NCBI GenBank assembly: GCA_034696485.1
Contig: JAQIWT010000413.1
Coordinates: 1 to 20,948, forward strand
Direction of reading: 5' to 3'
Length of the DNA: 20,948 bases
Source of the DNA: Isohypsibius dastychi
Taxonomy: Eukaryota > Tardigrada > Eutardigrada > Parachela > Isohypsibiidae
Of the stretch, positions 2,430-20,948 are shown one piece after another (positions within the stretch are counted from its first letter, which is position 1; each line of letters begins with the position of its first letter). The notes below the pieces were generated by a model. It made no database searches and was not told where the DNA came from. It saw nothing but the letters and a program-made list of their open reading frames with translations. The position numbers were made by a program, and so were the translations under genes.

Positions 2430-3300
2430 GGATAAAGACAAGGTGTCCAGACTACCAGACTACAACGGTCTGCAGCATTGGGTTTCAAACAGGCTTTAGT
2501 GAATATTTTAAGGTCATACGACAGCCAGCTTCTTGGGGCAGCCGAGACGCCACCAGATTAAATATTTTGCGCGTAATCGTTGAGACGGTCATAAGGCACG
2601 ATAATTGATGCTTTTTTTCGATATTTCCTGTCCCACACTTGCTCCAAGTTGCTCTCAGTCCTTTCCGACAATAAAACGATTCTGGGATCCTACGGCTGCA
2701 TGTTTATTGAGAATAGCACAGTCCAAACTCCGGTTATCAGTTTTGATGATGATATTTTGGGAGGATTCTGTGAGGGCGATTCTCGATGCCGTTTCGGGCA
2801 ACAGTACCTGAGATTTCCAACAAAAAAACTTATGTCGATTGCATCGATATCTCGTTTTCCCGCAATGATAGCTTCATCGAGATCACATATTTTGACCTGC
2901 GTCGTACCGTGCTCTTCTTCGGCAATCACAAAACTGGCTAGTTTGAGATCACCATGAACAATTCCGTTAGAGTGGAGATACGAAAGACCAAAAATAATAT
3001 GTCCCGATGACCGATGAGAAACGAAGATTCTTTCTCACCTGAGCAGTATTCCATAACAATGCAGATTTTGTTGGTCTCAGAAACCGTTTGTGCTATTTTG
3101 AATACCGCGTAGTACCTGAAGACATTCACGTGCCTGCGTTCTGAGATAGGTGATCTACTTTTCATGTTCCTCGAAATTTCTTTCACACATGTTATCGACC
3201 AAATGATTTCTATTCAACTCTTCGATGGCAAGAAATTGTTGTCCACCAGGTTGTGGCCATTGAACAACTTCCGCTTTTAGTACGACACCCCTCCTGCAGG
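2430..3300 (-). pseudogene. Decayed protein-kinase domain
   Basis: On the minus strand, fragments of a eukaryotic Ser/Thr-type protein kinase follow in order but in shifting frames. The N-lobe lies near 3295-3190, where the ATP-anchoring lysine of the usual AxK motif is Glu (LAIEEL). Subdomains IV-V lie near 3140-3040 (RHVNVFRYY ... CIVMEYCSG). The catalytic loop is near 2980-2940 (GLSYLHSNGIVHGDLK, with Ser where Asn usually sits after DLK). Next come a DFG-like DLD near 2910, a P+1 segment near 2810 (RYCCP then ETASRIAL, frame changed) and a subdomain XI-like CLKPNAADRC near 2480. At least three frame changes plus stop codons separate the pieces. A possible donor at 'ctcaggtgag' (about 3045) hints at an intron, but not all shifts can be introns. 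Loss of key residues plus frameshifts makes this a relic. Confidence 0.72.
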
Positions 3301-3785
3301 TAGAAATCTTCTAGAAATAGAAATAGAAATCTTAGAAATATATATATATAAATATATATTCTTCGAGATCTCCGCCCTTTAGCCCTCTCGTCAAACCGCT
3401 GTCCACGATTTCGTCATTCATTCCGCAAAAAACCATGTTGTTCTTGAAGAGAAAATAGGTCAAGTCTTCCGAGGGGAGTATTTAGGGGTGAGCGGTCGGG
3501 GGTGAGGGGTGTAGGAACCAGAACTTGATTATTAGAGTAATAATTATCTTCACCTGGTTAAATGTCAATCAGAACACAGCGTTTTGGTCTTACAGTCTAT
3601 CATCGTCACCGGTGACATGGCAAACTTGATCTGACTATCAGTCAGCTAACACTGCGTATTATTTGACACACTTCCATTCGTATGAGAGGACCAGTGAATT
3701 TGTGGATTGGTGAAACAGATTTTTATGGTTTAGTTGCCTGTGTTGTTCTTTGCAGGCCAGTGATCGTTATCGATAGTAGATACCT
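3301..3785. other. Non-coding: low-complexity and G-rich tracts
   Basis: Positions 3310-3360 are an A/T-rich simple sequence ('agaaat' and 'atat' repeats). Positions 3473-3509 contain four runs of four or five G within 37 nt. No ORF of interest is present. The first weak 'caccggtgac ... aacttgatct' motif of the downstream array family appears near 3607-3632. Confidence 0.6.
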
Positions 3786-4335
3786 TTTGAACTTGATCTT
3801 TTTCACCCCTGAATCTGTGAACCGGTGAACTCAATCTTGTTTTCGGGTAAAATTTCCCACCGATTCCTTTTTCCTTCACTCCGAACTAGTGAACCGGTGA
3901 AATTAATGATAACTGCGGGTCAAATAATCTTTTCGAACCCGATTTTCCCCACCCCGAATCAATGAACTGCTGAACTTGATCTTAGAATCGGGTAAAATCA
4001 ATTTTTGATGTCACTGTTTTCCACCCTTTTTCACCCCGAACTAGTGAACCCGTGAAATTGATGATAAGTGCGGGTTGGGACAATATTTAGAAATCTATCT
4101 TTTACCACCGCGGATCAGTGAACTGGCGAACTTGATTTTGGATCGGGTAAAATTATAGCTTCTCGTCCCATTTTTTTACCCCTAACCAGTGAACTCGTGA
4201 CACTGGAGATAAGTGCGTGTCAGGACAGCTTTTTCTCACTCCGAATCGGTGAACCGTTGAACCCGATTTCGGATTCTCCTAAGAATGTAGCTGTTCGATT
4301 CCGTTTTTGACCCAGAATCATTGAACCGATGAAAG
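3786..4335 (+). repeat. Degenerate tandem array, ~150-bp two-part unit
   Basis: Two half-units alternate. Half A resembles 'gaatcNgtgaaccggtgaac' followed by 'ttgatctt..atcgggtaaaa'. Half B resembles 'gaactagtgaaccggtgaaa' followed by 'ttgatgataagtgcgggt'. The 'gggtaaaat' landmark recurs at 3845, 3990 and 4145, and the 'actagtgaacc' landmark near 3885 and 4040 with a decayed third near 4185, giving a period of 145-155 bp and about four units. It lies just beyond the 3' end of the helicase gene. Inverted relatives lie on the far side of the transposase gene (17862-17952), so it may be a subterminal transposase-binding array. Confidence 0.85.
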
Positions 4336-4610
4336 GGTCAGTTTGACTGGTGACCACGTCCGGTCTGATCTAGAGCTCATTCAGTCTATGTTCCAGTTTC
4401 AGGTGCAGAAGAAAAAAATGATTTGTCCGTGTTCTCAATCGTACATATGCATGTTTTTATCGACTGAAAGCTGCATCGAAATTCTGTCATGACACAACGC
4501 ACAGTGATAATTAAATATACGTTTGACAGCTTGCAATAAATCTGTGAAGCTGCCGTACTGAAGTAAGCGCTGCTTATTTTTATTCAATAATATCCGATAG
4601 AACTCAATAT
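4336..4610. other. 3' flank of the helicase gene
   Basis: No ORF or repeat was recognised. It probably includes the 3' untranslated region of the minus-strand helicase gene. 'ttattcaataa' at about 4580 contains a reverse-complement AATAA-type motif that could serve polyadenylation of that gene. Confidence 0.35.
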
Positions 4611-7600
4611 TTAAAAGAACTCAATTTCCGACATGTTATCAACAAAGTAAACTTGACCATCAGTTTCTCTGTGATCAGATCCAAAACTTCCATTATCCAT
4701 TTGGTTGACCATCGTATCAAAATCTTCGGCGATATTTTGCTCGTCTTCAGCTGTATCCAGTATCATCTCAGATTCCGCCTCGCATGTCGAGTCATTCAAA
4801 TTCGGTGAATGTAATCGCAGTTCGTGATGTTGTTGATTTTCTTTATATGGGTTCTCCATTCCGATTTTGTTCAGCGTATCGTACAAACGGTTTTTTGCGC
4901 TAGGACGAATTCGGAAATCGGCTTCGTACCTGTTGCGATATTCAACTGCTGTGATACGCAACTTTTGTAATTTTTCCTTGGTCAGATGGTCTGGCAAGCA
5001 TTTGAAAAATACAGAATACGCAGCAGATTTCCCAGAGTCAAGGGTAATATCTACATCTTTTAGTATACCATATCCGAGAGTCGACAACGACGATGCGATC
5101 TGCTTGAATTCTGCAATCCCTGCGAATTTGGGTAGATTTTTGTAGCCATACGCTTCTGAGATGATGCGTGGATAGATGAATGCTCCTTCCAGAAGCAGGA
5201 ATCGGTATTCAGTGGATTTTTTTTCATCTGAGCCATCAAATACCGCAGCTATGCCCTCGCTCGAGAGCACGTGGCGTATTGCACCTGGAATAATCCATAT
5301 TTCAAGCATGAATTTTAAAACATTGCTATGAAGTTCTCGAATCAGAGCTGTGTCAGAAAGAAGTATTGTTTGGAGTTATGACGGATGTGCTACGTCAAAT
5401 CAAGTTCATCTCAAAAAACTCTTGAATTTATCGTATAACAATGGCTGCAGCTCAATTTTGATTTCGTGCAATAAACTCTTGATCTGTGTTTGAGTCTAAC
5501 TGACCTTGGACAGTTTCAATGCTGATTTCTGTGGGAATCTCGATCTGTCCAAAATCCTTCAGTGTAATGAGAGCATGAATCAAGAAATGTAAATTCTGAG
5601 CGACATGAATGACCATTTCTTCGAGTTTTCCCAGCCCCCGTTCAGCAATTTCATCGTCGCTTTCGTCATCATCTGAAGAATCTAACTGAACGTTGATTTT
5701 CTCGACTAGTTCGGCGGAAAATTTGAAAATGAGTCTCCGTCCCTGAGCTGACGGCATCAAGGTGAATAACTCAGGGTGGTCTGCCAGATAGCCGTACAAA
5801 TACAGAAAGGTCGTCTTGTGATCAAATTCAGCCTGGAGATTCATTGCTGTCCAATACTTATACCACTCCTCACACCCCGAATTTGGTGCGGAAATCAGTG
5901 TGAAAAGCAGTCTGTTCTTGAATCCGTCTCCATGGACCCACATTTTCATCAACAAACAAGCTCCCACCGGATGTAAGCCACCAAACAGGTTCACGCATGA
6001 GTCAGGTATTCTCAACGATACAGCTTTCTTATAGCGAATGCGTAACGCACTGCCACTCCACCCTCCGTTGATTAAAGCTAACGCTTGTGTGCCATCTTGT
6101 TTTGTCGTGAAGGTTTGCAACCAAGCAAAAATTTCATCGGCAAATATTGTGCCATAACCCTTTGTTTCAAGTAGAAAATCTCGCAGTGCTGCAAATAACA
6201 GTCCAGTTTTATCGGTTGTATTTCATCGGTTGTATCACATTGTAGTCTAGCATTTCATCGTTTGATACCTTGAATTTGAATCGCTCGAGTGTGAATCGCA
6301 CTAGCCAGCGGTCTATCCAGAAGCTTGACAGCTTCTCTATTCTTCCACAATTTGAGCTTTGATACTCACAGTTCTTATGAAAACAACCCTTCACCCTTGA
6401 AAACAGAAGTGTGACAACTTCTTTCTAAGTTCTCTAAGTTCATGTTTAGTGTGGGGGGGGGGAAGCTTTTCTTGACACATAGGTGTCGCTGGAGGTCAAG
6501 GCAAGTAAACTTCAAAAAAGTTATTCTAATTGGCCGATTAGCCCGACCTCCGTAGTATTAAGTATTAAAAGTATCAAAAATATTGAAAGTAGTATTAGAA
6601 AGTTTTTAGTAGCGTTCCATGAATTCCTGTAGACTCATATGTCAGAAAGTTACAAAACCTCGAAATATCTGGCTTAACCCACGCCCATACCTCGCCTAGT
6701 TTACCGCTATAAAGGCCTACTACCCCTATTGCCTACTTCTCCGGCAGTGGGAGTGTGCATTAGGATTATGATTTGAGCATTCGACTGCTCTGCGCAGTTT
6801 GTTGTCGTATTCTGTATTCATCATTCATAATTTGTTCTCATCCCCTCGTTCTCAAGGGTTTTAAGAATAGATCCTGAAAGATAGATGGATTCCTGTCTTC
6901 TGGTTTGATCGGATGAATCAGTGGCGAAATCGATGGCTAAGGAGAACACATAAATCGATAATATTTGATAACTTGTGACTCGAGAGCACCATGCTTGCTC
7001 TTCTTCACTCCCCTGTATGAAATGAGGGGGAGTGCAAAGAGGGATCTATCGAGCCGCCGTGTTTGAGAAACTCGCATGATTATGCATCAGTTCTTTTCAA
7101 AACCCATAATTCTACTTATAAATACTGGTGGGCATTGCAAATTTGTTGATAAAAAAAATGTGTGAAAAATCTTCGATATTTCAGCCGGTATGGATTTGAG
7201 AAAATTTGTCAGCTTGATCGATTTTTTTCAATAAAAATTTTAATCAATAATTTGTAGCCGTGCTGATCCTGTTTTTTGAGTATTTTGGATGATCATAGCG
7301 TTCTCTGCGGTAGTGATGGTAGACAATAGCCAGATTCATAACGAATGACCCGCTCACCTGCTGTTGTTCCAGCGTTGTCTTTGATGACAACTTTATAGAA
7401 ATCTTCAATGTGCTCAATTATGTCCGTGCAAAACATTTTCGTGGCCGGTGATTTTCCATACCCAGCACCAGCAATCGTTACGATGAACAACGACGGAACA
7501 GTTATGTACTTGACTCTTGGGCCCATTTTGAATCCAACTTTGCCCGCGATGATTGAAGCTGTGGTTGAGAGCAAACAAGCCAGAACGGCTGGTGGTTTTG

Positions 7601-8348
7601 ATCGGCATGATATAGCCCAGAAATTTAGTGCTTTTGCAATTCTGGGCGGTAAATAATCTTCTACGTTTTGTGGATACCGTTTGAGAGCACGAAGAAAAAT
7701 TCGGTTCGCTTTTCCTTCAGAAACTGTGGCGAATTTGTGAGAGGCCATGTGCCTTTGCAAATCCAAAATAACAGCAAACTGGTAACAGTTCCGAGTTAGT
7801 TTCGAACTGAGCTAGCTACCAAATTTGCTAGGCAAAATTCATGATTCGATTTGATTTGGTGAAGTTGATTGCAACTGCGATCTTAGAATTTCAGACCAGT
7901 GAGGGTTAACTGAAACCAAAATACAAACATGAAAACCAAACTCACGTCAAGTCAACACGACACTGCAATGAATTAAGACGGACCATTTCAGACCAGCCGA
8001 AACTTTAGATAAACAATGAAACGAACCAGAGCCGTGTCATCGGCCAGGTTAGTGTAGATCTTTACTCTGTCGATATTGTTCCGACCCCCATGATGCATGC
8101 AAACTGAAACCAACCTTTTCACGCTGACTGAATAAAACCTTGGAGTTATAACCTGACTTTTGGATATCCTTCGGAATATCTGTTTGAAAGTGCGCTGCAC
8201 AACGCATCGAGAGCAGCTCAATGAGCCGGATTCTCCGATGCAATCACACTGAGTGGGTCTTAATGTACTCCAGGGTATTTATTTCGCGGATCAGAGCGTA
8301 TATTTTGGGGTCGACGATGGTGATTGGATCCAACAGATTTTGTTCCAT
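4611..8348 (-). CDS. DUF3987-family P-loop helicase/primase-associated ATPase (six exons)
   Basis: Proposed minus-strand exons are 8348-8250, 8194-8115, 7806-7358, 6364-6269, 6188-5505 and 5347-4611. Their lengths sum to 2145 nt, giving 714 aa plus stop with all phases matching. It begins with ATG (MEQNLLDP). The DUF3987 signature is clear: an N-terminal 'YLPPRIAKAL...FWAI' segment, Walker A GAGYGKS (residues about 173-179), a Walker B-like TIFADE (D259/E260), GGLHPVG (about 311-317) and DGFKNR with the conserved Arg (R334). Acidic stretches follow near 411-424 and in the tail. DUF3987 proteins are P-loop ATPases often paired with archaeo-eukaryotic primases, so a replicative helicase role is inferred. 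The 993-nt third intron holds a dispersed repeat. The exon 4 acceptor (...gtgag) is weak, so exon 4 and the small exon 2 are the least certain. Short upstream TTG starts were rejected because homology runs through them. Confidence 0.82.
6189..6268 (-). other. 80-nt intron of the helicase gene (ambiguous)
   Basis: Donor aag|gtatca and acceptor tttgcag|c join phase 1 to phase 1 and give ...IQIQALRDFLLETKGYG.... The intron contains a near-exact 14-nt tandem duplication ('acaaccgatgaaat' followed by a second 'acaaccgat'). Its last part would read as in-frame protein (DKTGLLFAALRDF), which resembles the DUF3987 'D-T-x-E-G-L' segment, but that reading needs a frameshift and crosses a TGA. I favour the intron. 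Confidence 0.6.
6395..7292. other. Intronic stretch with little coding content
   Basis: This lies inside the proposed 993-nt intron (7357-6365) of the helicase gene. It contains a run of at least ten G at about 6452, the dispersed repeat at 6510-6760 and otherwise AT-rich unique sequence. No ORF of note occurs on either strand, which is consistent with an intron enlarged by insertion. Confidence 0.5.
6510..6760 (+). repeat. Dispersed repeat, intronic copy
   Basis: It is a diverged direct repeat of 12490-12730. Both begin with 'aaagtt...att', then '(t/g)gattggccgattagcccgacc' against a near-identical block, then 'tagta'. Both later share a C-rich stretch ('cctcgcct.gt.t.cc') followed by 'ctact' and 'tgcc' motifs. 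No coding content is seen. Confidence 0.6.
7359..7806 (-). other. Walker A exon of the helicase gene
   Basis: This is exon 3 of the helicase model and carries the nucleotide-binding loop. It runs from acceptor gctcag|ttcg (7806) to donor acagcag|gtgagc (last exon base 7358), a near-ideal splice donor. Reading past the donor gives about 19 further codons and a stop at 7293, which marks readthrough, not the real C-terminus. The overlapping plus-strand ORF 7408-7656 is a shadow. Confidence 0.8.
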
Positions 8349-8498
8349 TTCAACAGATAAAATGCCAAATGATTAAAATCAAATCAAGCGCTGAGCTATC
8401 AACAAAATATGGCACCTCCGCAGAAAAAGTCAGGTAGTGCAGCTGGAGATGGAACAGAGTGACATTTTTAATGTTGCAAAATCGTGACATTCAGAATT

Positions 8499-9879
8499 TC
8501 AAATTCTTTCCACGCGAAAATTCATACTAGAGTCTCCCACGGAAGTATCTTTGCTAAATCTGAGCTCAAACGGAGTACTGTTACCGTGATTATAGGATGG
8601 GTCAGCAAGTGAAATCAGTGGATTCTTGATGCAAATTTTGGCACCAACTTTGAATTTACTTGCAAAATCTTCGAACTGTGAGAAAATGGCTCCTCTAGCT
8701 GTACCGGTCGCATCTCTGCAAGTGAAATACAGTCCATCCCCTTCCTTTCCATTGGCTTTCCATGGTCCGATTCTTTGACTCAACACTTCCACGTTCACTT
8801 CAACTCTGAACAAAATGGGTGGATGAATGGGTGTGAGGTTGATGTATTGATATCAAGTATGTTTACCCTTTCAATTTACTATCCAACTGGAAAATTGTGA
8901 TTTTCTTCAGGTCAGGCGTTCCCACAACCAAACGCGTTGGTTCACCGAACTTGCGATCAATCGCATCCTGAAGTTGCTCATCCTGCAGGATAATTTCACT
9001 GTCGTGCAGAACCAGTATGGTCCTACAATGATAAATGCACGGATCTGATAGGATATGCACGACAAAATTTCGAAATCAACAGAATCGAAAAACTGACACC
9101 CGCCGCTTCAGTATCTTGTAATTGAACAGCGGTTATTTTGCATCGAAAATTAATCCAGATCTTTTAAAACAACAACGGCACTGATGTTTACCCATTTGGA
9201 CCTGGTCGAAGACTGCTACGACCGACTTTCAGAAGACCAGACTGATAATTCTCAAACATCATACCACTGCCACGTGCGAATTCACATTCTGTAAATTTTC
9301 AGTGTTCTGTTAGTTTTCTGTTACCCATGAAAAAATACAGCTAACCTGTAGTCATATGTCGCCAGTCTCGAACAAGTAAAACTGTTCCATCATCATTCTT
9401 CCGAGTTGCAATGATATACAGAGTGAATGGACCAGATTTACCCCCAAAAGCGTCCTAATATATATTCTGTCATTTTTGAAGTAACCCATAATTGATGTTT
9501 CACCAACCTTCAGCGTGAACTTGTTTTCGAGTTGAGAGATGTGATTCATCAGCTGCACGTTAGAAACAGGTTTTGGCAACATGAGCCCGTTGTTCACCAT
9601 TTGTTCAGAACATCGACTCATCTTCGTTGAAACAGCAGCTGGAAAAACTTGCCGAACGTCGGACGCACCTTCCGCTCGCGATTGTGCATCAGTAGGAAAC
9701 GATTTGATCGCGATCACGCACGATTTCTCAGACTCGCTATCAGAATCCAGCCGAGTGCCTTTACGTTTCTGTGAGGCATACTGAACATCTTCATCATCGC
9801 TCTCATTTTCGAAAAATTTGGGATCCCCAGCGCTTTCGTCGCCGGAATCAAGCAGAAGTGCGTCGTTCTCTTGTTGTTT
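8499..9879 (-). CDS. RPA70-like OB-fold ssDNA-binding protein (5' end not found)
   Basis: Minus-strand exons are 9879-9508, 9454-9346, 9288-9192, 9022-8867 and 8805-8499. The introns are 53, 57, 169 and 61 nt, all GT-AG with matching phases, and together they encode 346 aa. No in-frame ATG occurs near the start of the first exon and it follows an acceptor (gactctag|aaa), so an upstream first exon is missing. An acidic, Ser/Asp/Glu-rich N-terminal part (DSDSESEKS) leads to a first OB-like segment (FTLYIIATRKNDDGTVLLVRD). The C-terminal domain looks like RPA70 DNA-binding domain A or B: ITIFQLDS, RIGPWKANGKEGDGLYFTCR, DATGTARGAIFSQF, VGAKICIKN and FELRFSKDTSV. The zinc-containing C domain of RPA70 is absent. 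Likely role: coating single-stranded DNA during replication of the element. It could instead be a diverged host RPA paralogue. Confidence 0.75.
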
Positions 9880-10177
9880 CTAGAGTCAAAAATATCGAAC
9901 GGTCACTCAAGCCAGCAGATCTGATCAAACAAGTTGAAAAACATATGCTCGCTCAACAAACATGACCAAAAATCACTTTCGATATTTCGTCAGATTAAGG
10001 ATTCAATATCCACATCGCTTCATGCGTTAAGCTAAAAGTAGACATTCTGGTTAAACGTGGAGAAAAAAGACGATGACTAATTATTATTCATGTTTGGGTA
10101 AGTCACTCAAGCGAGTCGATCTGATCAACAGTAGCGACAAGCATTTCTCAGATTGAACTGCGTGGGAGGTAGCCCAG
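9880..10177. other. Gap upstream of the RPA-like gene
   Basis: This interval should contain the missing first exon or exons and promoter of the RPA-like gene, but I could not choose an exon with confidence. A minus-strand ATG at about 9963 opens only 12 codons. A short diverged direct repeat is present (9901-9930 and about 10099-10128, sharing 'gtcactcaagc' and 'gatctgatcaa'). Confidence 0.4.
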
Positions 10178-10345
10178 TTAAAACTTCTCCGCCAAATTCA
10201 AATTACACCTCCAATAGACGTAACGTGCTTCTTTATACGTGGTGTCCATACGTAATACCGGCGGATATGAACGCCAAATCTTTGGCTTTTCGTTTTGTGC
10301 CAATTCTTCGCATGTAATAAGCCTGCCGAGAATCGATATTGACAT
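10178..10345 (-). CDS. Small ORF, 55 aa, unknown
   Basis: It runs from ATG (10345) to TAA with coding-like composition (CEELAQNEKPKIWRSYPP, then TTYKEARYVYWRCNLN). The 'YVYWRC' ending resembles half of a FLYWCH-type zinc finger, but the second half (downstream Cys and His-x-His) is missing. It could be a real small protein, a last exon of a spliced gene, or a relic. It overlaps a longer minus-strand frame (10395-10198) that reads less like protein. Function unknown. Confidence 0.3.
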   Translation of the reverse strand: MSISILGRLITCEELAQNEKPKIWRSYPPVLRMDTTYKEARYVYWRCNLNLAEKF

Positions 10346-10395
10346 CGTTCAAAATTGGGCAAGATTGACCGATTTTGGAGCGTTATTTTGTACAA

Positions 10396-10811
10396 GTGAA
10401 TGATGATTTATATTTTTGAAATTCGGGTAAACCGGGAACCGGGTTTTGCGAAACTATGGGACGGAAAAAGTCAAGCTGCATTGGTATCCCGTTTCCATCA
10501 CTCGGCTTTGATTTCGGCTAATTGGCTGAACGGTTGCATGAAGACATTGATTATGCTGGTCTTACCCTATAAGTCAAGCTTGACCTATTGACATATTGAC
10601 CCATTGACCTGTCGGAGTTCTAAGCACTGTTTAATGTTCACTGTTTAATCAGATTAACACAACAAAATTTGCGAAGTTGATACAACAAGCCCCTGTTATC
10701 TGGTAGGACTATCTTGCTGAATTATTCACCATAAAAGCATCTTTATGTACATGGCCAGATCTGTAATTTTAATTAAAACCAATTCAAAATCAATGAACTC
10801 AATCGGTCTGA
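10396..10811. other. No gene seen
   Basis: Only short plus-strand open stretches (10400-10591, 10745-10948) without recognisable domains occur here. The second runs into a repeat. A short run of 'tgacctattgacatattgac' type sequence at 10588-10607 is a minor local repeat. Confidence 0.5.
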
Positions 10812-11000
10812 CCCTGTTCAAAGACTTCAGTCTCCATTTTGGACAAGTGCGACAAAGACTGCACGAGACCTTGCTGGAGATGATCACTCAAGAGACAAGA
10901 TGGCAGACCATCGATCGGCCGACTGTCACCGCTGTTTTCTCATTTTGACGGAGTTTGGGAGCGGCTATTTGCATTCAGTTTATGAGTAAGATTTCGAACA
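10812..11000 (+). repeat. Direct repeat R1, copy 1
   Basis: It is a diverged direct copy of 14258-14444. Both start 'ccctgttcaaagactt.agtctcca', share 'caagtgcgacaaagac.gca' and 'gactgtca', and end in 'ttttgaacag'-like sequence. The two copies bracket 3.4 kb holding the coiled-coil gene and PrimPol. No intact ORF is present. Confidence 0.8.
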
Positions 11001-11193
11001 GTCCAGTTTTATCAGATGCGTTTGAAAATATTGGGTTCTTGTCAAACTTTTTTTGCAAACCTTGTACTAACTAGAACAAGGTTCTTCTCCGGTGGCCAAC
11101 TTCACTTGCCACAAAAGATTCTTACTGCGATCGGCATAACCACATTACTGTCTCAAAAATTACAACTTACAACTTACACTGGCGTTCAGTTCC
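10998..11193 (+). repeat. Direct repeat R2, copy 1
   Basis: It is a copy of 11361-11576, about 75-80% alike by eye, lying just downstream of the coiled-coil gene on the minus strand. It duplicates that gene's intron plus about a dozen nt of the upstream exon edge ('ggaactgaacgccagt|gtaag'). The matching acceptor AG is lost here ('actg' instead of 'acag'). It begins with a 17-nt block identical to 6197-6213 inside a helicase intron. Confidence 0.82.
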
Positions 11194-11217
11194 CTCAGCG
11201 ATGAAGATGCTCAGTTT

Positions 11218-11882
11218 TCACTGATAAACATTTAGATCGGGAAAAGGACTTCTGTGCATCGGCTTAAGAGCTCGAGATTCACATTCAGAATAAGCTGGCT
11301 TGTAGAAGTAAGTACCTCTAACAAAACTGGCCAGAATCATCGGAACTTTTTCGAGCCAAAACTGTCCAGGTTTATTAGATGCGTTTGGAAAATTTAGGTT
11401 TATGTCAAAAAATTTTTTATATACCTTGTTCCAACTAAAACAAGGCTCTTCTCCGGTGGCCAACTTGACTTGCCACGATAACTTTGTTTTGAACGAGGTT
11501 TACTCTGCCGTCGGCATAACTACATTACGGGCTCAAAAAATACAAGTTGATTACAACTTACACTGGCGTTCAGTTCCTGTTCCAAAGCTGCAAGCTTTAA
11601 CAAGAGCTGTGCTTTGGTTGGTTTTTTTGAAACGGCAGTAGCAGCCGATGCCCGGCGCTTTGTTGGTTGGTCCGATTTTCCGGCAAGCCCACCATCAATA
11701 AATTCGACTTCTCCACCTGAGTCGACACTTGCTGTTTCATCAGTTCTGCTCGGCCCAGCAACCAGTTCCGAGGTAGGTCCTCTTTTCAGCGAAAGCTCAC
11801 TCTTTCTTGAAATTGCAGCAGATCCTCCTTGCGTCACACAAATGCGACTGACGACTGCCTTTTTTCCTCCGTTTTTGCTCAT
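11218..11882 (-). CDS. Basic coiled-coil protein, 154 aa, unknown (two exons)
   Basis: Exon 1 runs 11882-11562 (ATG, 107 codons) and exon 2 runs 11361-11218 (47 codons plus stop). They are joined by a 200-nt phase-0 intron with strong donor agt|gtaagt and acceptor gacag|t. The N-terminal part is Ser/Lys-rich with nuclear-localisation-like basic clusters (SKNGGKK, KRGPTS, TKRRASA). A short heptad-like coiled coil follows near residues 91-105 (AQLLLKLAALEQELN). The tail (FWLEKVPMILASFVRG..., ends PFPDLNVYQ) has no recognised domain. The intron is duplicated downstream as R2 copy 1. By position between PrimPol and the RPA-like gene it may be an accessory replication or packaging factor, but this is inference. 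Exon 2 is less certain than exon 1. Confidence 0.5.
11361..11576 (+). repeat. Direct repeat R2, copy 2 (contains the intron)
   Basis: This copy coincides almost exactly with the intron 11362-11561 of the coiled-coil gene plus 15 nt of exon 1. Shared landmarks with copy 1 are 'agatgcgttt', 'ttcttctccggtggccaact' (one difference), 'gatcggcataac.acatta' and 'cttacactggcgttcagttcc'. Confidence 0.82.
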
Positions 11883-11951
11883 GTTATCGTTGAGAACTAT
11901 TGCATTCGATGAAGCGGAATTCGATTTGGCATTCCGTTTTCAGTTTCGGAA

Positions 11952-12067
11952 TTCTCCAAAAACACTATTGCAATTTGAAATTATGCAGATTTTCAAGATA
12001 TCGATTCAATATCTTCGGTATCTTGAGAGTCGGCATAATTCTGAATCGCAATAGCGTGTTTGGAGAA
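11952..12067. repeat. Large imperfect palindrome
   Basis: Two arms of about 58 nt meet near 12009. Left 'ttctccaaa', 'ctattgc', 'aattatgc' and 'caagatat' pair in order with right 'gatatcttga'-like, 'gcataatt', 'gcaatag' and 'tttggagaa' (12059-12067). Outer fragments continue: 'gaagcgg...tttggcattc' at 11911-11934 is echoed in inverse at 12136-12146 and 12183-12201. It lies upstream of the coiled-coil gene start. It could be a MITE-like insertion, a hairpin-forming replication or regulatory site, or an inverted duplication. Confidence 0.75.
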
Positions 12068-12256
12068 TATTCAAAGGATTTTGAAACTGCCGAATCGGTC
12101 AGGCTTGGTGTATCTTTAAATCAAGTAAGAATCCAAATGCCAAACCGATTCAGAAAAACCAGCTTTGCTGATTTTTCAAGAGAATGCCAAACTGCCGCTT
12201 CACCGGAAATGTTCCGTCAAGTTGATACGAGATTATTAAACTGGAAAGCAAGCTAA

Positions 12257-12394
12257 AAACCTCAGCAAGCAGACGATCAGCTGCATGAAAAAATGAGCTC
12301 GCTTGAATCGATCTTCATGCGCGTAGCAACACTTGACAAGTATGCAGTTAGAACTAACGCTCCGAACCCCAAGAAAAATCACAAACAACTGTGA
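12257..12394 (+). other. Short coding-like frame on the plus strand
   Basis: It is 45 codons between stops with an internal ATG at 12293 and protein-like composition (ADDQLHEKMSSLESIFMRVA). No family was recognised. It may be an exon relic from an older insertion. Evidence is weak. Confidence 0.2.
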
Positions 12395-12489
12395 AATTAA
12401 CCCACTGGAGCTCCTTGGTCGGGCGGTTCCATAAAGAGCCAAAAGGTCACAGTGATGGATTACGACAAGGTTTCGATGACGAGGACCGG

Positions 12490-12730
12490 CAATAAAGTTT
12501 CAAACCGTTTATTTGGATTGGTCGGTTGGCCCGACCCCCTAGTAGATCTAACCTTAAGCTACACCTCCCATTGACACAATATTCGAAAACAATTCAAAAC
12601 TCTGAAACCCCCCGGTCTGTTCGACCCCCACCCTCGCCTTGTCTGCCTAACTACGACGTCTACTCATACTGCCCAAATCCTATGCAGCGACGGTGAGCTG
12701 TAGGGGAAGCTGCAATATTTCAGTTGACCA
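12490..12730 (+). repeat. Dispersed repeat, second copy
   Basis: It is the partner of 6510-6760 in the same orientation. It contains a strongly C-rich middle ('cccgaccccct', then 'cgacccccaccctcgcct'). It sits between the 3' end of PrimPol and the palindrome. No coding content is seen. Confidence 0.6.
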
Positions 12731-12937
12731 CGTTGCCTGAATAGGGGGTACGCAAGTGGGCTGGCTTTTCTTATGACCTGAATTCAGAAGGTGCCGTTCT
12801 TTTCTACTTTCATCCATATCGGACATTTTCCAGTTCTAAATTTTTTAGTTACTACTGACTTCTTGGTTAAGTGAAGAACTGATGGCTCGAACGGACACTT
12901 GATTCGTCAATGCAGTAACTTTGATCTGTTGACTGAC

Positions 12938-13999
12938 TTAAATTACATTCTGCGATTTACCTTTGAGAAGTCGTTCTTTGATGTGTCTATTCAATTTCGT
13001 GAATACGGCTTTTTGGGTTTTCTTGCAGTTAGTACTAAAACACCGCTCTTCCAAATCAGCCTTCCCTCTTGTGAAAATGAAATAGATTTGATTAGAGCTG
13101 TGGTATCTTCCTGCTCGCTTGCAAAATTGCTGGACTGTATTCTTGAAAATGATAACTCCAGTGTCGGGAAAAACTTTGATGCATCGGATAAACAACGACG
13201 GCTCTTTTAAGATACAAAATTGATTGCCAATTAATCCTGCAGCTTGGTGGAGTAATGTCAGTTTGGGACTGTTAACAGAACATTCCCCCAGTTTGAGCAT
13301 TCCCGATCCGATAATCAAGCTCGCTGCAAACAGAGAATGCTCTGGCAATTCAGTGAAAACCGAACTGGTCAAATGATGGACCATGAGTTTCTCTGATTTT
13401 CCAAATTTATTGCAAGCTAACATGCGGAATTGTTGATTCCTGTTGTAGGGCAATGTGTCAATCACACTTTTATTTTTGCTCCCGTGTAATCCCGGTATCG
13501 TTTCTTTGTCAGCGGCAAACTTTTGTGCGATTGATCTCATCTGACAGAGACTCTGAATTTCGACATCAGGGCAGATAATGTGAAAACTGCACTTCGTCGT
13601 TGAGGAGGATGACAGCACTATCATGTTTTGAGCGCCGTAGTAGTCCGTGACAACTTTCAATACGCGCTGAATCACTTGTGTTTCAACGTAGTCCGTACTA
13701 TTCTCAGTGATATACTCAATATCGAAGTACAACCTGTACGATGAATGCTCCAAGAGAACTTCGTAGAAATGTGCAGTGAGGCAATATTTGAATCTGATCA
13801 TTTCGTGCATTTGTGGAACCGAAAAAATGAGAAACTTCCTTTTTCGCTCGTTGTTATATTCATATGCGAATAGCCTATCCTCTGGACGATTCTCTCGTAA
13901 TAAATGACTAATAGCCTCTGCTTGATTGTGAAACCAACAAACACGCTCAGCTTCCATGATATCAAATGAAATACAGGCTCGGGTAGCAAATATGCACAT
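12938..13999 (-). CDS. PrimPol-type primase-polymerase (AEP superfamily)
   Basis: This is a 353-aa uninterrupted ORF from ATG; a second in-frame Met at residue 15 may be the real start. All hallmarks of PrimPol (CCDC111) are visible: CWFHNQAEAI near residue 21, catalytic motif I YRLYFDIEY (D93, E95), motif II CSFHII (S138, H140), and motif III VIDTLPYNRNQQFRML (D181 with the RN..FR signature). A UL52-type zinc knuckle follows with C293, H300, C320 and C325. Its C-x6-H-x19-C-x4-C spacing equals that of vertebrate PrimPol as I recall it. Such enzymes make primers de novo and extend them with dNTPs. It is shorter than vertebrate PrimPol (about 560 aa), with compact linkers and no long C-terminal RPA-binding tail. 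Its neighbours in the same orientation include an RPA-like and a DUF3987 gene, consistent with a replication module. A possible donor near 12960 (aaag|gtaaat) could add another exon. Confidence 0.93.
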   Translation of the reverse strand: MCIFATRACISFDIMEAERVCWFHNQAEAISHLLRENRPEDRLFAYEYNNERKRKFLIFSVPQMHEMIRFKYCLTAHFYEVLLEHSSYRLYFDIEYITENSTDYVETQVIQRVLKVVTDYYGAQNMIVLSSSSTTKCSFHIICPDVEIQSLCQMRSIAQKFAADKETIPGLHGSKNKSVIDTLPYNRNQQFRMLACNKFGKSEKLMVHHLTSSVFTELPEHSLFAASLIIGSGMLKLGECSVNSPKLTLLHQAAGLIGNQFCILKEPSLFIRCIKVFPDTGVIIFKNTVQQFCKRAGRYHSSNQIYFIFTRGKADLEERCFSTNCKKTQKAVFTKLNRHIKERLLKGKSQNVI

Positions 14000-14257
14000 A
14001 TTTGGTGAATGATGGACTGGTTTGCTTGGTTACATCGATTTATGTAGCGAATGAAGATCCAAATTTATTCGCAAGTTCAAGAATCTAATTTTAGACAGAG
14101 GCTGATACGTTTCCTCCGCAAATTACAGCCCACCCCTCAGCATTTGGTTGTATGTGATAGATGTGCAAGGTGTGCTGTGAATTTTGGAGCACACGCAAAA
14201 TTATTTCTGTTTGGATTCATTCATACCTTTCCCTGCTCCGCTGTTGGAAATGCTCCA
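14000..14257. promoter_or_regulatory. Presumed upstream region of PrimPol
   Basis: No gene is convincing here: two overlapping plus-strand frames are open but featureless. By position this should hold the PrimPol promoter on the minus strand. I see no clear core element. Confidence 0.25.
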
Positions 14258-14444
14258 CCCTGTTCAAAGACTTAAGTCTCCACTGTCAACAAGTGCGACA
14301 AAGACGGCAGGAGACATTGATGGAAATTAACACTCAGAAGGGAAGAGGGCAGACAACCGATTGTGCGACTGTCAAGCTGTCTGTCTCAAGTTGATGGAGT
14401 TGGGCGCCGATTAGCTGACTGATTATGAGAAAAATTTTGAACAG
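14258..14444 (+). repeat. Direct repeat R1, copy 2
   Basis: It is the partner of 10812-11000 (see there). Both copies stop at the same 'gaacag' boundary. Copy 1 continues straight into R2 and copy 2 into unrelated sequence, so this boundary is a junction. Confidence 0.8.
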
Positions 14445-14516
14445 GCGTTTCTGGCCGGAACCCTCCAGTTATATTATGTGCTTGGTTTTTCAGCAAAAAT
14501 CAGCAACATTTTAGGG

Positions 14517-14687
14517 TTTGATAACCGAGTATATTGGCAAAACAAAGCAGCTGATCAAAGCTGAAAATAAGCGTCTGCAGCAGTATTTGGATAAGTCGAC
14601 CAAAGCATGATTGGATAAGATTATTGATGAAGAGTTAATTCAGAGGAATATGGACGTCCTGGGAGATTCACCCGATTGGACGTAGTA
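14517..14687 (+). pseudogene. Coiled-coil exon relic
   Basis: After a plausible acceptor (acattttag|ggt), the plus strand reads through a helical, charged segment (KTKQLIKAENKRLQQYLDKS). It then meets one in-frame TGA and continues (LDKIIDEELIQRNMDVLGD) to a stop. The composition is protein-like, but the stop and lack of a start suggest a broken exon. No family was recognised. Confidence 0.3.
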
Positions 14688-14923
14688 CGTACTTGCTTCC
14701 TATAAGTTTTCCTTCAAGGTTGCGCATAATTTCCTCGGAGTGATTTTTTGAGAAATAACGACATTAACTTAATGCAGAATGCAAATTGCAGTCCAAATTC
14801 CAGTAATTTTTTCTTATTACAGAAGTGATACAACGCAGGATAGCCAAGTACCAAGTACACCAAGCCGAGTACACATGCCAAGTACACATAGCACGCTGTA
14901 TGATCTCAAGATGATGGTTAGAT

Positions 14924-17244
14924 TCATTTATTGAATGTTCTGTGGTGTCGACCATTGTTGGGTCGTCCCTTTGGGACCACTGCTCCTGCTGCGTTCAGAT
15001 AGAAAAGTTCGTTCCTGTGAATCCTTACGTTGTCTTCTCCAATCTGGACGCGTGACACTCGCTTTTTTGACGAAGAAATTTTGGGACAGATTTTGTGAAC
15101 CGTTTCAAGGGGCTGTATATTCGGTATTTTACCAGCCAGAAAATAATCCTGGACAGTCTCAAGGCAGGACTTGATGGAACAGAATTGAGCTGCTCCGAAT
15201 GAAGAGGCAGTCGATGCAATTGTCTTGCATACATCAGATGACGCTGCGAAGCGTTGCCCTAATTTAGAATAGGTATGCTTGTGAGGAAAATCTGGAGTTG
15301 TCGTAATTTTGAGGCTGAGCTCATCGTGGTCAATCCCACTGCCGAGCACATTTTCGTCGCTCTTGCACTCATCGAACATCTCTTCATCGGTTAGACCTCT
15401 GACTGCTGCTCTCATTATGCATAATGGTACGTCCATTGTACAGTTTTCCATAGACGTCCTTCTATGCCATTTTTGCAAGTTGTCACGAATGTCAAATAAA
15501 CTCAAGCCTAGATTTTCTCTGACTTTCATGATATGGCGGCAGGTCAAACCGAATGAGCAGTTGATATAACAGGAACAATCGAACGAATCCTCAAACAGAA
15601 AAACAACGTACGATGCTCCCACCCTCAATTCGACGTCCCAGTCGACTTCAGAAGTTCTCGTGACCACAAGATCCTGGCTTACGAATTGTTCGCATTGTTT
15701 GTTGATGATCTGACAGGCAAATCTGGTGAGAATTTTACCAGATTCTGCAGCGACAATAGGTAACGCTGCACCGTGGATCACAAGATTCTTCCCTTCATTG
15801 ACATAATCCTGATAATTTCCCAGCACAGCCTTGTAACTCAGCATTTCTAAAATAATCTCAACGCATTCTCCGAGATGATATTTTTTTCCACAGCTTGCAC
15901 CATTAGCTCTCATTGCCAGTTTCAAGAACAAGAAAAATCGTTCGATACGATTTGTTGTGATGTTGCCAAAAGTTCGCATATGTGAGCGAAAAGCCATTAC
16001 CCACTGTTGTTTGATGGGCATCCAGTTCTTGTTATAGTAGCTAAAAAATTCTTCCGATGACTGTATTCCAAGCTGTATCTCGTTGGCGAAATAGGTATCC
16101 TGATCGTGGGAGTAAAGCACTTTTCTGAAACATGAAAGTACTTCTTGTTTTTCATCACTGGAACAGCGCTCTTTAGCAATTCGAGTTTTCACAGCCTTTA
16201 TAACGTGGAACGCGCACAGTAAAATCTCTGTTTGTGCAAACGCTTCTTGAAGTATTTGGAGCTGTGTGAAGTCTTTGTCGACAAATATTGCACATACGGA
16301 CGCCCATGTATCGTTATTTTCTTTAAACTTTTCAAAAAAAGAACCCAAAATCATGGAAGTTTCTCTCCTCATAAATCCAAGTGCATACGGAATGCCGAAA
16401 CCGTTTTGATCCTGCCCGAGTATACTACGGCAATTTCAGTATTAATACAGACAAGTTTTGGTGAAATAAATTTGTACCAGTAGAGCGAGAAGTTCTCAAT
16501 ATTGATTCTGTATGTGCTGTCGATAAATAACACTTCTCCGTGCTTGACAAAATCTGCTTTCATCTTGCTTGTTTGTAAGAACAAGAGTTGGAGCTGTCCA
16601 TTTGCATTATTTTTGTCGATAATGATAGTGCATCCGCTATCTTTCTTCTTGTGGTTTCTCAAAATTTCCAACAGATGATCTTCGTGAGACTTCTCACAGC
16701 CGCCTGATTTTCTGAAGCGTGCCGATAAATTGTAGATGTCTTTAGTTGTGATTAGCCCTGGCATTTTCGATCTGGTGCGTAACAGATTGAGATGTGTGGA
16801 AATCTTTCTAACTGGTGTACCCAGTTTCATCAAATGAAGACATTCGTCTTTTTCACCAGAAGACATCGCTCGATTTTCCGGGTAAAAAGCAGCGATATGT
16901 AGTGCAACTGTATGGCCCCTGTGCTCACAAATACGGCTCATCTCCATCAGGTACATTCGATTACCTCGAAGCTTCAGAACCAATATCACCGGACATCCAG
17001 TTTTGATTGTGCTCTGAAATTTGCGTTTTTGATTTTTTTCTGAAGTTTTCGTATTTTTGTAATTTCCTCCATGTTTGCATCTCATCCTGAGGGATGAATT
17101 CGGAAAGATGTCATGTTGAGGATGTGAATGTGCAGTACGTGGCTGTCCAGAGGGTATAATGAACAACTGGCCACTTGCAATGCCAAAAGCACGAACCGCA
17201 ATTAGCGCTTCTTTCTGCGAGCTGAACCACTGGCCAACTTTCAT
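14924..17244 (-). CDS. MULE-type transposase with FAR1-like and SWIM zinc domains
   Basis: Exon 1 (17244-16478) and exon 2 (16424-14924) are joined by a 53-nt intron (gtacaa...gccgtag) that restores the conserved FSLY|CILGQDQNGFGIPYAL segment and yields 755 aa. Without splicing the gene looks like two ORFs overlapping by ATGA. Domains: an N-terminal FAR1/WRKY-GCM1-like zinc region (C56, C84, then ICEHRGH at 105-111); the DDE catalytic core with D242 (FIDSTY), D305 (FVDKD), the LLCAFH motif near 324-329 and E417 (TTNRIERF); and a C-terminal SWIM finger C539-x-C541...C551-x-H553. All key residues are present, so it is probably functional or recently so. It should bind the element ends and catalyse excision and insertion in the nucleus. 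Start: first ATG (MKVGQW). It is the 5'-most gene of the same-strand series. It could also be a domesticated ZSWIM/FAR1-type regulator, but the intact DDE triad favours a transposase. Confidence 0.94.
16425..16477 (-). other. 53-nt intron in the transposase gene
   Basis: It is a GT-AG intron with donor ctg|gtacaa, an 'attaatactgaaat' branch-like sequence and acceptor gtag|t. Its removal puts the two halves in one frame and removes 18 residues or so that have no counterpart in MULE proteins. Its size matches the 53-nt intron in the RPA-like gene. Confidence 0.85.
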
Positions 17245-17861
17245 TGTAAAAGATGCAAACAATCAGGCACGATGAATTAGACAAACCCATATGAATTTGC
17301 ATCAGGTCATGATACGTTACTGCCAGGCAACCAGCAACTGATCAAGCATAAACCGCTACCGATATTCCAAATAGCACTGTGGCTCGAGGTCAGCCTCAGA
17401 GAGCAACCATATCACGTGACGAAATTTTGTTGGTCAATAAAGACCAACAAGTGACAACTGAGGACCACGCTACACTTCAGATTATACTGCCCCTTGAGAC
17501 GAATAACGATAATCACGCGTCCAGTTCGAAAAAAACAACGAACCGATAAACAGAAACGAACTTTTTCATCTGGCTGTGGCAGAAACAGTTGTCTCAGAAG
17601 GTCGCACCAATAACGGTCGACACAACAAGAGATTAACAGATGAACCTTAATTTGTCGAATTCAACGGAGAAAAATCGCAAATAAATTTGCAGCTTTCAAC
17701 TTTTGTCCAGATATCACGACATGTTTTTCGGCCCGAAATTTGAGATCCTTTTAGAAAGAAGTTAGTTTTCCAGTCGGCAGATAAGAAAATAAAACAACGA
17801 TCTGTAACTTGGAAAGAAAAGATGTATCGAAACCACTGTGTTCAAACTCGTACTTAAGTAT
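17245..17861. promoter_or_regulatory. Upstream region of the transposase gene
   Basis: No ORF of note occurs here. A perfect 9-bp inverted repeat with a 6-nt loop lies at 17427-17450 (ttgttggtc/gaccaacaa). By position the region holds the transposase promoter and possibly the element's end, but I cannot point to a TATA box or a terminal inverted repeat with confidence. Confidence 0.35.
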
Positions 17862-17952
17862 CGAGATCGAGTTCACCAGTTCACCGGTTCGCGATGAAAA
17901 AGCATGAAATCGAAACGAGCATGCTTTGACTCGTATCAAAGATCAAGTTCAC
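17862..17952 (-). repeat. Inverted copies of the left-array motif
   Basis: On the minus strand this region reads 'gaaccggtgaactggtgaac', then 'tcgatct', and farther right 'gtgaacttgatctttgata'. These match the theme of the 3786-4335 array, in opposite orientation and on the opposite side of the gene block. They are candidate subterminal repeats of a transposon. Confidence 0.6.
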
Positions 17953-18711
17953 AATTTCCCATGCTCGAGGTAAGATAGATCACGATAGATCACTTCACTT
18001 TGCGTCAAAATTTTCTGCATCAATAATTCCACATTAGCTTTCGGAAACAATCGCCAAGTCTCAAGAAAAGGGGCCCTCCCCGACCCCAGGGAGAAATATA
18101 ACCAAGGAGGGTAACAAAAAAAAAACACTTGATATTCACTTTTCTGAAGTATTCTGGCGCAAAGGACTGTCTGATACCCAAACATGACTTGTCTTGCAAT
18201 ATTCTGAGTGTGATGAGACAAAACATGATAACCCCCAAAAACTCACCCAGGAAGACACTACGGAGAAAATAAGCATGATTCACTCTAGTAATCCCTCCTC
18301 GTTATTTCCTCTAAGCTCACTTCAGCATTCGCCATTTTTTAAAGGATTAAAAAGACAGGTAAAAACACGAGTCAGATTACTTTATAATAATTATCTCACA
18401 GTCACTGGTCTCGATCTACTGTAGAAAATACAAATGTTTCGAACGGAGAACTTGTGAGGAGATATGTCCTGAAATTGTAGGAGTTATTTTGAGGAGATAT
18501 GGTCAGAGGTTATATGTCCATGAGGAGGAGGAGATCTCGTACTGAAGAGGAGGAGGAGGAAGAGGAGGAGGATGTGAGGGAGCAGTTCGCTCACAAGTAG
18601 ATATATACCTAGCCGGTTACACAACAATTATTGCGGGTGCTGGCAAAACGGTACTAATAAGCTGATTTATCGAAATCGGTTATAGCAATGTTTTTTTATC
18701 TCAACTGGTAA
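17953..18711. other. No recognised gene
   Basis: Overlapping minus-strand frames (17949-18221, 18020-18283) and a plus-strand frame (18194-18424) are open but show no domain. Positions 18526-18577 are a purine-rich GAG/GGA tract typical of simple sequence. Nothing else is supported. Confidence 0.5.
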
Positions 18712-20265: not shown

Positions 20266-20302
20266 AGTAATTATTGCGAACTTGCAAACTTCTGAAATAA
20301 AA

Positions 20303-20725: not shown

Positions 20726-20948
20726 CCGATTTATTAAGGAATACAGCTTACAGCTAGCGATATTGCGATCTTCACGGTGCAATGCCTCTTCACCAATGCA
20801 AACACGGTCGTGCTTGAAGTAAAGACTCCGCAAATTTCGTTAGACATAAAGAACCAATAGACCGCTCTGACATACGGTTTGTTGTGGTTTGATTGATTGT
20901 TGTTGTTTGATTTGCGCTGCGTTCCCCGTGTTGATTCATCGTTGAATA
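20726..20948. other. Right edge, no gene seen
   Basis: This is unique-looking sequence with a short 'ttgttgtggtttgattgattgttgttgtttg' T/G-rich run near 20879-20909. The overlapping ORFs on both strands (20615-20833 minus, 20640-20822 plus) are shadows of the array and its edge. Confidence 0.5.

Follow-up and report, generated by a model that had tools for sequence, protein, structure and literature searches.

The window analysed here, which is the whole stretch of 20,948 nucleotides, contains a single DNA transposon of 14,805 bp. It encodes a MULE transposase, a PrimPol-type primase-polymerase, an RPA70-type OB-fold protein and a DUF3987 ATPase, all on the minus strand, as the first-pass annotation had proposed. 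That these genes form one transposon is well shown by its ends, its target duplications, its recurrence and its gene trees. The element is probably a large eukaryotic DNA transposon of the MULE superfamily whose three extra proteins copy element DNA during its cycle. Such self-copying would fit both the set of genes carried and the residues conserved in them.

Limits of the element

The contig of the window is called C413, and C24, C162, C636 and similar names denote further contigs of the same genome. The element had earlier been placed at 4611-17244. This range holds as the span of the four genes but not as the limits, since the element ends at 3458 and 18262. Its boundary features are as follows.

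3458..18262, minus strand (that of its genes): whole element, 14,805 bp, from ends common to copies and a 9/9 duplication
3449..3457, no strand: target-site duplication, left copy GAGAAAATA, from flank comparison
18263..18271, no strand: target-site duplication, right copy GAGAAAATA, from flank comparison
3458..3478, plus strand: left terminal sequence GGTCAAGTCTTCCGAGGGGAG, equal to the right end at 14/21 positions
18242..18262, minus strand: right terminal sequence CGTAGTGTCTTCCTGGGTGAG, from comparison of copies
3785..4227, plus strand: left subterminal repeat array, GTGAAC units at about 73-bp spacing, from repeat analysis and motif count
17864..18129, minus strand: right subterminal repeats with an oppositely oriented GTGAAC-type unit, limits approximate, from repeat analysis and motif count

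A perfect 9-bp A+T-rich target duplication lies outside the short, imperfect inverted ends of the window element. The inverted ends match at 14/21 positions in C413, 16/21 in C24, 17/21 in C162 and 15/21 in C13, and the corresponding target duplications are identical at 9/9, 9/9, 8/9 and 9/9 positions. Two of the six end-paired copies, on C648 and C1451, are without a target duplication (5/9 and 4/9). When flanks were cross-paired as a control, no more than 6/9 positions were identical in 30 pairings.

Within C413, 101 identical 9-bp flank pairs were found between 1001-4611 and 17262-20900, and the best inverted-end score among them falls exactly at 3458/18262. With 8-bp flanks in the same scan, unrelated pairs score up to 11/14 and 12/20. 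Allowing up to three mismatches, two end patterns occur at 21 and 14 places, as against 0 and 1 for reversed controls. These end-like patterns are spread over 28 contigs, including the 63.7-kb C13, which carries a short end-bounded copy of 3,652 bp and gave no match in searches with the four genes.

The oppositely oriented repeats of a single family that had been described at the two sides are real, and are subterminal repeats within the element. GTGAAC occurs 7, 4 and 13 times in the left subterminal regions of C413, C24 and C162 and 0 times in each of the right ones. For its complement GTTCAC the counts are 0, 0 and 0 on the left and 3, 2 and 6 on the right. The region at 9.9-12.9 kb of the window contains repeats of its own.

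Other repeats were considered as ends and rejected. The pairs 699-1177 / 19612-20267 and 317-346 / 20293-20702 lie outside 3458-18262. The inverted pair 14934-15066 / 17502-17634, a candidate for the ends of a smaller MULE, consists of the transposase 3' end and a partial inverted copy of it, upstream of the transposase and 53% identical at the protein level. No replication origin was identified in the element.

Genes of the element

The genes and one further frame are listed below; the spliced window genes contain no internal stop codon.

14924..17244, minus strand: MULE transposase, 755 aa, two exons and one GT-AG intron (53 nt, 16477-16425), from Pfam on the spliced protein
12938..14029, minus strand: PrimPol-type primase-polymerase, single open frame, from profile and structure-sequence matches
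9352..9879, minus strand: acidic open frame, matching C24 (37%, 1.4e-11), with a weak match (5e-5) to the equivalent part of C460
8499..9075, minus strand: RPA70-type OB-fold protein, two exons and one GT-AG intron (8866-8806), upstream end of the first exon provisional, from a structure-sequence match
4611..7811, minus strand: DUF3987 P-loop ATPase, three exons (7811-7358, 6188-5505, 5284-4611) with GT-AG introns, from Pfam on the spliced protein

Transposase. The spliced protein matches the Pfam MULE family (2.5e-14) and the ZSWIM1-3 RNaseH-like family (8.7e-28). The putative catalytic residues are invariant, with D in 5/5 first-exon rows and D and E in 6/6 second-exon rows. We take D, D and E to be the catalytic triad, and the Cys/His motif to be of SWIM type.

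PrimPol. Profile matches are to Herpes_UL52 (1e-4) and AEP_C962R (3.6e-4), and the best solved relatives are the PrimPol chains 5l2x/7jk1 (E 2.5e-23), which are human. Residues D103, E105, S148, H150 and D191 are invariant in 7/7 aligned rows, representing the eight known loci with C45 left out, and a C-H-C-C knuckle is present in the six aligned rows that reach that far. We read the DxE, SxH and D motifs as the AEP catalytic type and C-H-C-C as a UL52-type zinc knuckle. To look for a separate host PrimPol, an Artemia PrimPol was used as query; it matched seven places in this assembly, which looks incomplete, and every one was an element locus.

OB-fold protein. The best solved relative is 1ynx, 'Replication factor-A protein 1' (E 2.8e-8), and 1jmc also matches (5.2e-6). 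The acidic frame is probably the N-terminal part of this protein.

ATPase. If translation starts at the Met in codon 22 of its opening frame (near 7748), the protein is 582 aa long. Once spliced, it matches Pfam DUF3987 with E 3e-16 and 60 bits (cut-off 27), and it has a P-loop, GAGYGKS, and a Walker-B-like motif, FADE. GKS is found in 8/9 aligned first-exon rows (C603 left out), and C460 has AKS. When 7,997 candidates were scored with the DUF3987 profile, 0 relatives reached E 1e-3. NCBIfam gave no match for the ATPase, and PHROGs gave a weak DNA helicase match for C460 (9e-5) and none for C1366. A helicase role has been predicted for DUF3987 domains fused to mobile-element primases, in the account given by PMC5862659, and the protein here is likewise a predicted helicase.

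Recurrence and selection

The four genes occur in the order MULE-PrimPol-OB-DUF3987, in one orientation, on C413, C24, C162 and C636. The co-occurrence that a single element would entail is thus borne out on three contigs besides that of the window, at 30-68% protein identity. Complete copies sharing the ends and gene order of C413 lie on C24 and C162, and C636 has all four genes and one end. Comparison of copies puts the ends outside all four genes and none between them, and the four gene trees agree across the contigs having all four. Shared ends, target duplications and agreeing trees all speak for one element, as first suggested.

The alternative named at that time was that several unrelated elements had become nested by chance. 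The internal repeats at 9.9-12.9 kb and the partial, inverted duplicate of the transposase 3' end are what such nesting could leave, but order, strand, ends and duplications are repeated on other contigs and the trees agree. For the three complete copies chance nesting is excluded, and as a general account it is so improbable that it can be set aside.

Flanking or neighbouring genes include one for astacin on C162, one of PAN/LRR type on C24 and one for a eukaryotic ribonucleotide reductase on C45. The host is eutardigrade-like, its alpha-centractin being 88% identical to that of Ramazzottius; a COX1 search gave 0 matches.

An artefact of assembly, or contamination by contigs of a different organism, would be suggested by the shortness of the contigs, by foldbacks at the start of two of them (C413 1-66 and C1366 1-111), and by the position of the alpha-centractin that places the host on a separate contig, C1361. 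Against this, the end-like patterns extend over 28 contigs including C13, and the flanks and neighbours include the astacin, PAN/LRR and ribonucleotide reductase genes, which makes this explanation very improbable.

OB and DUF3987 matches are present on 8/8 contigs with a PrimPol match. C45 and C460 have enough sequence upstream, and there PrimPol, OB and ATPase genes are present and a MULE match is absent; a flank and inverted-end scan found no element ends around these two loci. C1199 holds a MULE with one stop, and no module match across 5.4 kb downstream.

Ratios of dN/dS were usable in 5 of 15 comparisons, those in which synonymous change was not fully saturated (dS 1.5-2.8). They concern the ATPase and PrimPol only and range from 0.02 to 0.10. 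Between C162 and C45 the values are 0.04 and 0.02 for the ATPase and 0.10 for PrimPol; for the ATPase they are 0.02 between C636 and C1444 and 0.09 between C413 and C24. The full copies found are few, old and far apart in sequence and show no recent burst, the counts being lower bounds in an incomplete assembly. A few diverged copies without a burst are unlike the leavings expected of an efficient copy-paste element.

A sister lineage with another transposase

Merlin is the eukaryotic counterpart of IS1595/IS1016. The transposase on C1366 belongs to the IS1595 family (NF033547, 77.4 bits, cut-off 75), and C835 and C1490 carry relatives of it (42%). All three contigs with this type of transposase have module genes, the evidence on C1490 being a single OB match at 7e-4. 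The transposase stands near OB and ATPase genes, and on C1366 near PrimPol too. No inverted ends or duplication of this lineage stood out on C835 or C1366 (only 11 kb). Transposase and module are candidates for parts of one element. To judge from sequence, the replication kit would not be bound to one transposase, since a sister lineage has it beside an IS1595/Merlin-type enzyme.

Proposed mechanism and alternatives

The transposase would bind the ends and the oriented subterminal repeats, excise or nick the element, and insert it into a 9-bp target rich in A+T. A minimal replication kit could be made up of the remaining three proteins, which would copy element DNA in the course of the transposition cycle: the ATPase would unwind it, the OB protein would coat single strands, and PrimPol would prime and begin synthesis. 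What is copied may be a circular or linear molecule set free ahead of re-insertion, or else an intermediate of the strand-transfer or figure-eight kind (copy-out-paste-in). Because no PolB was recognised, synthesis would probably be finished by host polymerases.

Alternatively, a MULE may have captured virus- or plasmid-like replication genes that now serve in another role, such as fork repriming, donor-gap repair or anti-host-defence. Capture of gene fragments by MULEs is known from Pack-MULEs, as related in PMC6431247, and repriming by PrimPol is described in PMC8641930. However, PrimPol, OB and ATPase genes stand together at every PrimPol locus and beside two kinds of transposase, dN/dS is low where measurable, and the trio would seem to resemble a replicon set more than a single repair factor. 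We regard capture for another role as unlikely.

It is more doubtful still that the core is an integrated virus- or plasmid-like replicon using whichever transposase is at hand, with the MULE being a property of one lineage. The module does accompany a MULE at some loci and an IS1595-type transposase at others, and at C45 and C460 neither was found. But pattern scans of viral contigs gave 9 PrimPol candidates (from one peptide pattern only) and 102 DUF3987 candidates with 0 confirmed relatives, and no capsid or packaging gene was found among the frames scanned against Pfam, a subset of all frames. On the four contigs that carry both, the MULE tree and the module trees also agree, so the pairing of MULE and module is old.

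A transposon that copies itself with its own kit is the reading we prefer. More tentatively, it may represent a new class, "PrimPol replicon-transposons", in which one cassette (PrimPol, RPA-type SSB and DUF3987 helicase) would be paired with DDE transposases that can replace one another (MULE; IS1595/Merlin-type) and would copy the element apart from normal host replication, independently of PolB or HUH Rep.

Comparison with known systems

MULE and Merlin elements. Target duplications of MULEs are 8-11 bp long, usually 9 bp. The element resembles MULEs in its MULE/ZSWIM-type DDE transposase, inverted ends, 9-bp A+T-rich duplication and short relatives sharing its ends. It differs in that elements here are 15-22 kb long with three additional conserved genes, whereas the complete arthropod MULEs reported in PMC13359780 measure 1,875-9,972 bp and have one frame, or two in six species. 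The main text of a eukaryote-wide MULE survey (PMC6446971) lacks the words 'primase', 'helicase' and 'replication' by term search, and the matches listed in open-licence PMC full text included no primase-bearing MULE or Merlin element. The C1366-type transposase differs from Merlin/IS1595 in standing near OB, ATPase and (on C1366) PrimPol genes.

Polintons/Mavericks and casposons. These also combine an integration enzyme and their own DNA-synthesis enzyme in one end-bounded element. Casposons use PolB. Polintons have a protein-primed PolB and a retroviral-like integrase, according to PMC6431247. The transposase here is instead a MULE, without a recognised PolB; the 20 frames scanned yielded no recognisable PolB, retroviral-type integrase, protease, packaging ATPase or capsid gene.

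Teratorn. This piggyBac-herpesvirus fusion likewise has a transposase and replication genes, a primase among them. It is described as about 180 kb long and mostly herpesvirus genome (PMC5601938, PMC6431247), whereas elements here are 15-22 kb, with no virion gene recognised in the scanned frames.

Helitrons. Those with RPA share an element-encoded RPA-type OB protein. Helitrons have an HUH Rep-helicase and are without TIR or TSD. The Rep and helicase domains are also given in PMC6431247. The element here has a DDE transposase, TIR and TSD, with no Rep match in the scanned frames.

Prokaryotic elements. In these, too, an AEP primase is paired with a DUF3987 ATPase, but the domains described in PMC5862659 are fused and the primases belong to other AEP families. 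The window element has separate genes and a human-type PrimPol, and is a eukaryotic transposon.

The usual view is that cut-and-paste DNA transposons leave DNA synthesis to the host. The element makes it possible to test how a DDE transposon could raise its copy number by its own replication, how such cassettes pass from one transposase family to another, and what roles PrimPol and DUF3987 play when owned by a selfish element. Large eukaryotic elements with replication proteins, as reviewed in PMC6431247, have PolB, Rep/helicase or a fused herpesvirus. The same source suggests that a nucleic-acid-primed polymerase and a primase could yield new elements once a suitable integrase is acquired. 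The element described here is a concrete relative of that idea, with genes that look intact in an animal-like genome.

Gene content of the element

The element at 3458-18262 of the window (contig C413; other C-numbers are contigs of the same assembly) carries four genes. In order of transcription they are:

MULE transposase, minus strand
PrimPol-type primase-polymerase, minus strand
RPA70-type OB protein, minus strand
DUF3987 ATPase, minus strand

The first-pass annotation had named these four minus-strand genes, and all were identified. The transposase (755 aa) is one frame once a GT-AG intron is spliced out, at a position common to C413, C24, and C1408. The ATPase (582 aa, counted from the Met at codon 22) is likewise one frame after GT-AG splicing. 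The modelled part of the OB gene has one intron, across which the exons join stop-free, and the PrimPol gene is a single open frame. In Pfam, the spliced transposase matches MULE (2.5e-14) and ZSWIM1-3 RNaseH-like (8.7e-28), and the spliced ATPase DUF3987 (3e-16).

The PrimPol motif residues show no variation in seven of seven aligned loci, and the presumed transposase triad is invariant in every row aligned. The P-loop Lys-Ser of the ATPase is kept in nine of nine first-exon rows, eight of which have GKS. Upstream of the transposase start, window 17502-17634 is a decayed, inverted duplicate of the 3' end of the transposase coding sequence.

Recurrence in the assembly

The assembly, including the window, comprises 30.4 Mb in 1,648 contigs. 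Matches were found to the transposase (15 on 11 contigs), PrimPol (8 on 8), the middle ATPase exon (12 on 12), and the OB exon (8 on 8); these locus counts are lower bounds, because contigs shorter than about 10.6 kb (C1490) may be missing from the search. DUF3987 and OB genes are present on all eight PrimPol contigs, the OB gene of C1366 being counted via its own, related query only. All four genes, on one strand and in identical order, occur on C413, C24, C162, and C636, so the set is found together elsewhere, as a single element would predict. On C636 the first transposase exon falls past the contig end.

PrimPol lies downstream of MULE in four of the five loci with a readable downstream neighbour, a count that leaves out C1408 and C1106, where the contig ends on that side, and short MULE matches on C1274, C746, C110, and C1498. 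The exception is C1199, with no module gene (PrimPol, OB, or ATPase) matched in the 5.4 kb downstream of its MULE, which contains one stop. Since the C1199 transposase places beside that of C636 in the tree, its module may have been lost. Adjoining this MULE is a very weak tyrosine-recombinase/DUF3435 match (C1199 4429-5214; 0.03).

Ends and target site duplications

Comparison of flanks between copies gave one common end per side. Written inwards, the end past the ATPase gene (left) is GGTCAAGKCTTCCG and that past the transposase gene (right) is CGTAGTGKCTTCC.

Copies with both ends in opposed orientation (six contigs)
C413 3458-18262; element copy, 14,805 bp; flanking 9-bp repeats 9/9
C24 616-22181; element copy, 21,566 bp; flanking 9-bp repeats 9/9
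C162 10442-25704; element copy, 15,263 bp; flanking 9-bp repeats 8/9
C13 3229-6880; short copy, 3,652 bp; 9-bp duplication 9/9
C648 12559-13100; short copy, 542 bp; flanks 5/9, no target duplication
C1451; copy, 2,685 bp; flanks 4/9, no target duplication

At up to three mismatches, the left pattern occurs at 21 places in the whole assembly and the right at 14, on 28 contigs together; reversed control patterns occur at 0 and 1 places, respectively. Flanks cross-paired between copies agree at no more than 6/9 in all 30 pairs, and 17,796 random A+T-rich 9-mer pairs agree at 9/9 in 0.02% and at 8/9 in 0.08%. These ends and duplications are good evidence that the MULE transposase inserts the element.

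A scan of C413 (left ends 1001-4611, right ends 17262-20900) gave 101 pairs with identical 9-bp flanks, among which 3458/18262 has the best inverted-end score (9/14 and 13/20). In the 8-bp-flank register, which shuts out this pair, other C413 pairs reach 11/14 and 12/20. The end score alone is thus unexceptional, and the weight rests on agreement between copies.

In the left subterminal region, GTGAAC has 7 occurrences on C413, 4 on C24, and 13 on C162, against none in the right region of any of them. Its complement shows the reverse pattern, with none on the left and 3, 2, and 6 occurrences, respectively, on the right. The opposed repeat family seen earlier at the two sides corresponds to these oriented repeats, which are likely binding sites for the transposase or the replication proteins.

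Host and flanking sequence

Among the 120 matches listed for alpha-centractin exons on C1361, identity is 88% for Ramazzottius varieornatus, 84% for Paramacrobiotus, 82% for Hypsibius, and no higher than 72% for any other. Element-bearing contigs also hold other genes, such as a PAN/LRR gene (C24) and an astacin protease, whose open frame (C162 7852-10443) extends to the left end of the C162 element. A protein kinase fragment (window 2690-3034; Pfam 8.8e-9) lies in the flank of the C413 element.

Direct repeats at window 699-1177 and 19612-20267, outside the element and about 18.9 kb apart, are 73-83% alike and possibly represent another dispersed repeat around the insertion. A 48-bp tandem array occupies 20293-20702, with a lone reversed unit near the opposite contig end (317-346). 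The contig start (1-66) is a near-perfect palindrome, and on C1366 bases 1-111 are an exact inverted copy of bases 372-482; both palindromic starts are perhaps assembly foldbacks.

Evolution as a unit

Gene trees, with four contigs common to all four, indicate joint evolution of the four genes. C162, C636, and close relatives group with support of 98 (transposase), 99 (PrimPol), 100 (OB), and 100 (ATPase). The branch splitting C413 and C24 from the rest has 100, 86, 60, and 100, respectively; certain other branches are weak (40, 56).

Nei-Gojobori dN/dS was obtainable in 5 of 15 comparisons, at dS of 1.5-2.8. For C162/C45 it is 0.04 and 0.02 in two parts of the ATPase and 0.10 in PrimPol; for the N part of the ATPase it is 0.02 (C636/C1444) and 0.09 (C413/C24). 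Synonymous change is saturated in the remaining ten, including all transposase and OB comparisons, with dN of 0.10-0.57.

Modules beside a different transposase or lacking a MULE match

An open reading frame on C1366 matches the IS1595 family (Pfam 4.6e-14; NCBIfam 77.4 bits, cut-off 75). Its only relatives in the assembly search are on C835 and C1490. Module genes accompany it on each of the three contigs: C1366 has PrimPol, OB, and ATPase; C835 has OB and ATPase, a search there finding no PrimPol; and C1490 has one weak OB match (7e-4), which the C1366 OB query did not reproduce, and no ATPase match. This lineage is only probably one element, because C1366 and C835 differ in gene order, the C835 OB match has one stop inside, and an end scan of both contigs revealed no ends.

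The transposase query gave no match at two PrimPol loci: C45, with 9.2 kb read upstream, and C460, with 5.3 kb. At a third, C603, the contig stops 163 nt upstream. The stretch 15887-17846 of C45, 5-7 kb upstream of PrimPol, holds a DDE gene of Harbinger type and a small-chain exon of ribonucleotide reductase, both of which may be unrelated neighbours. The best solved relatives of the reductase are mammalian, with yeast close behind.

Proposed mechanism

PrimPol enzymes prime DNA and extend it, and OB domains of the RPA type are single-strand binders. A helicase function has been predicted for DUF3987 domains that are fused to primases of mobile elements (PMC5862659). Judged by these protein families, the three module proteins would have corresponding roles in the element. 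No PolB was recognised among the frames scanned, so bulk DNA synthesis would probably be left to the host. The copied form could be linear, a circle released by excision, or an intermediate of strand transfer. The full copies are few, old, and diverged, which counts against efficient self-copying.

Relation to known transposons

A PrimPol profile search found 12 proteins; none of the five matches bearing an organism name is from a tardigrade. Full-text literature searches returned no primase-bearing MULE or Merlin element among the matches listed. A tardigrade transposon curation paper reports MULE among the superfamilies found, and a term search of its main text gave neither "primase" nor "Merlin" (PMC11071193).

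Transposase, ends, and duplications make the element a MULE, but with a gene set unlike those that term searches and passages show for MULEs in two surveys (PMC6446971, PMC13359780). On a bolder reading, the MULE and IS1595-type loci would belong to one class of elements, PrimPol replicon-transposons, whose transposases can be exchanged.
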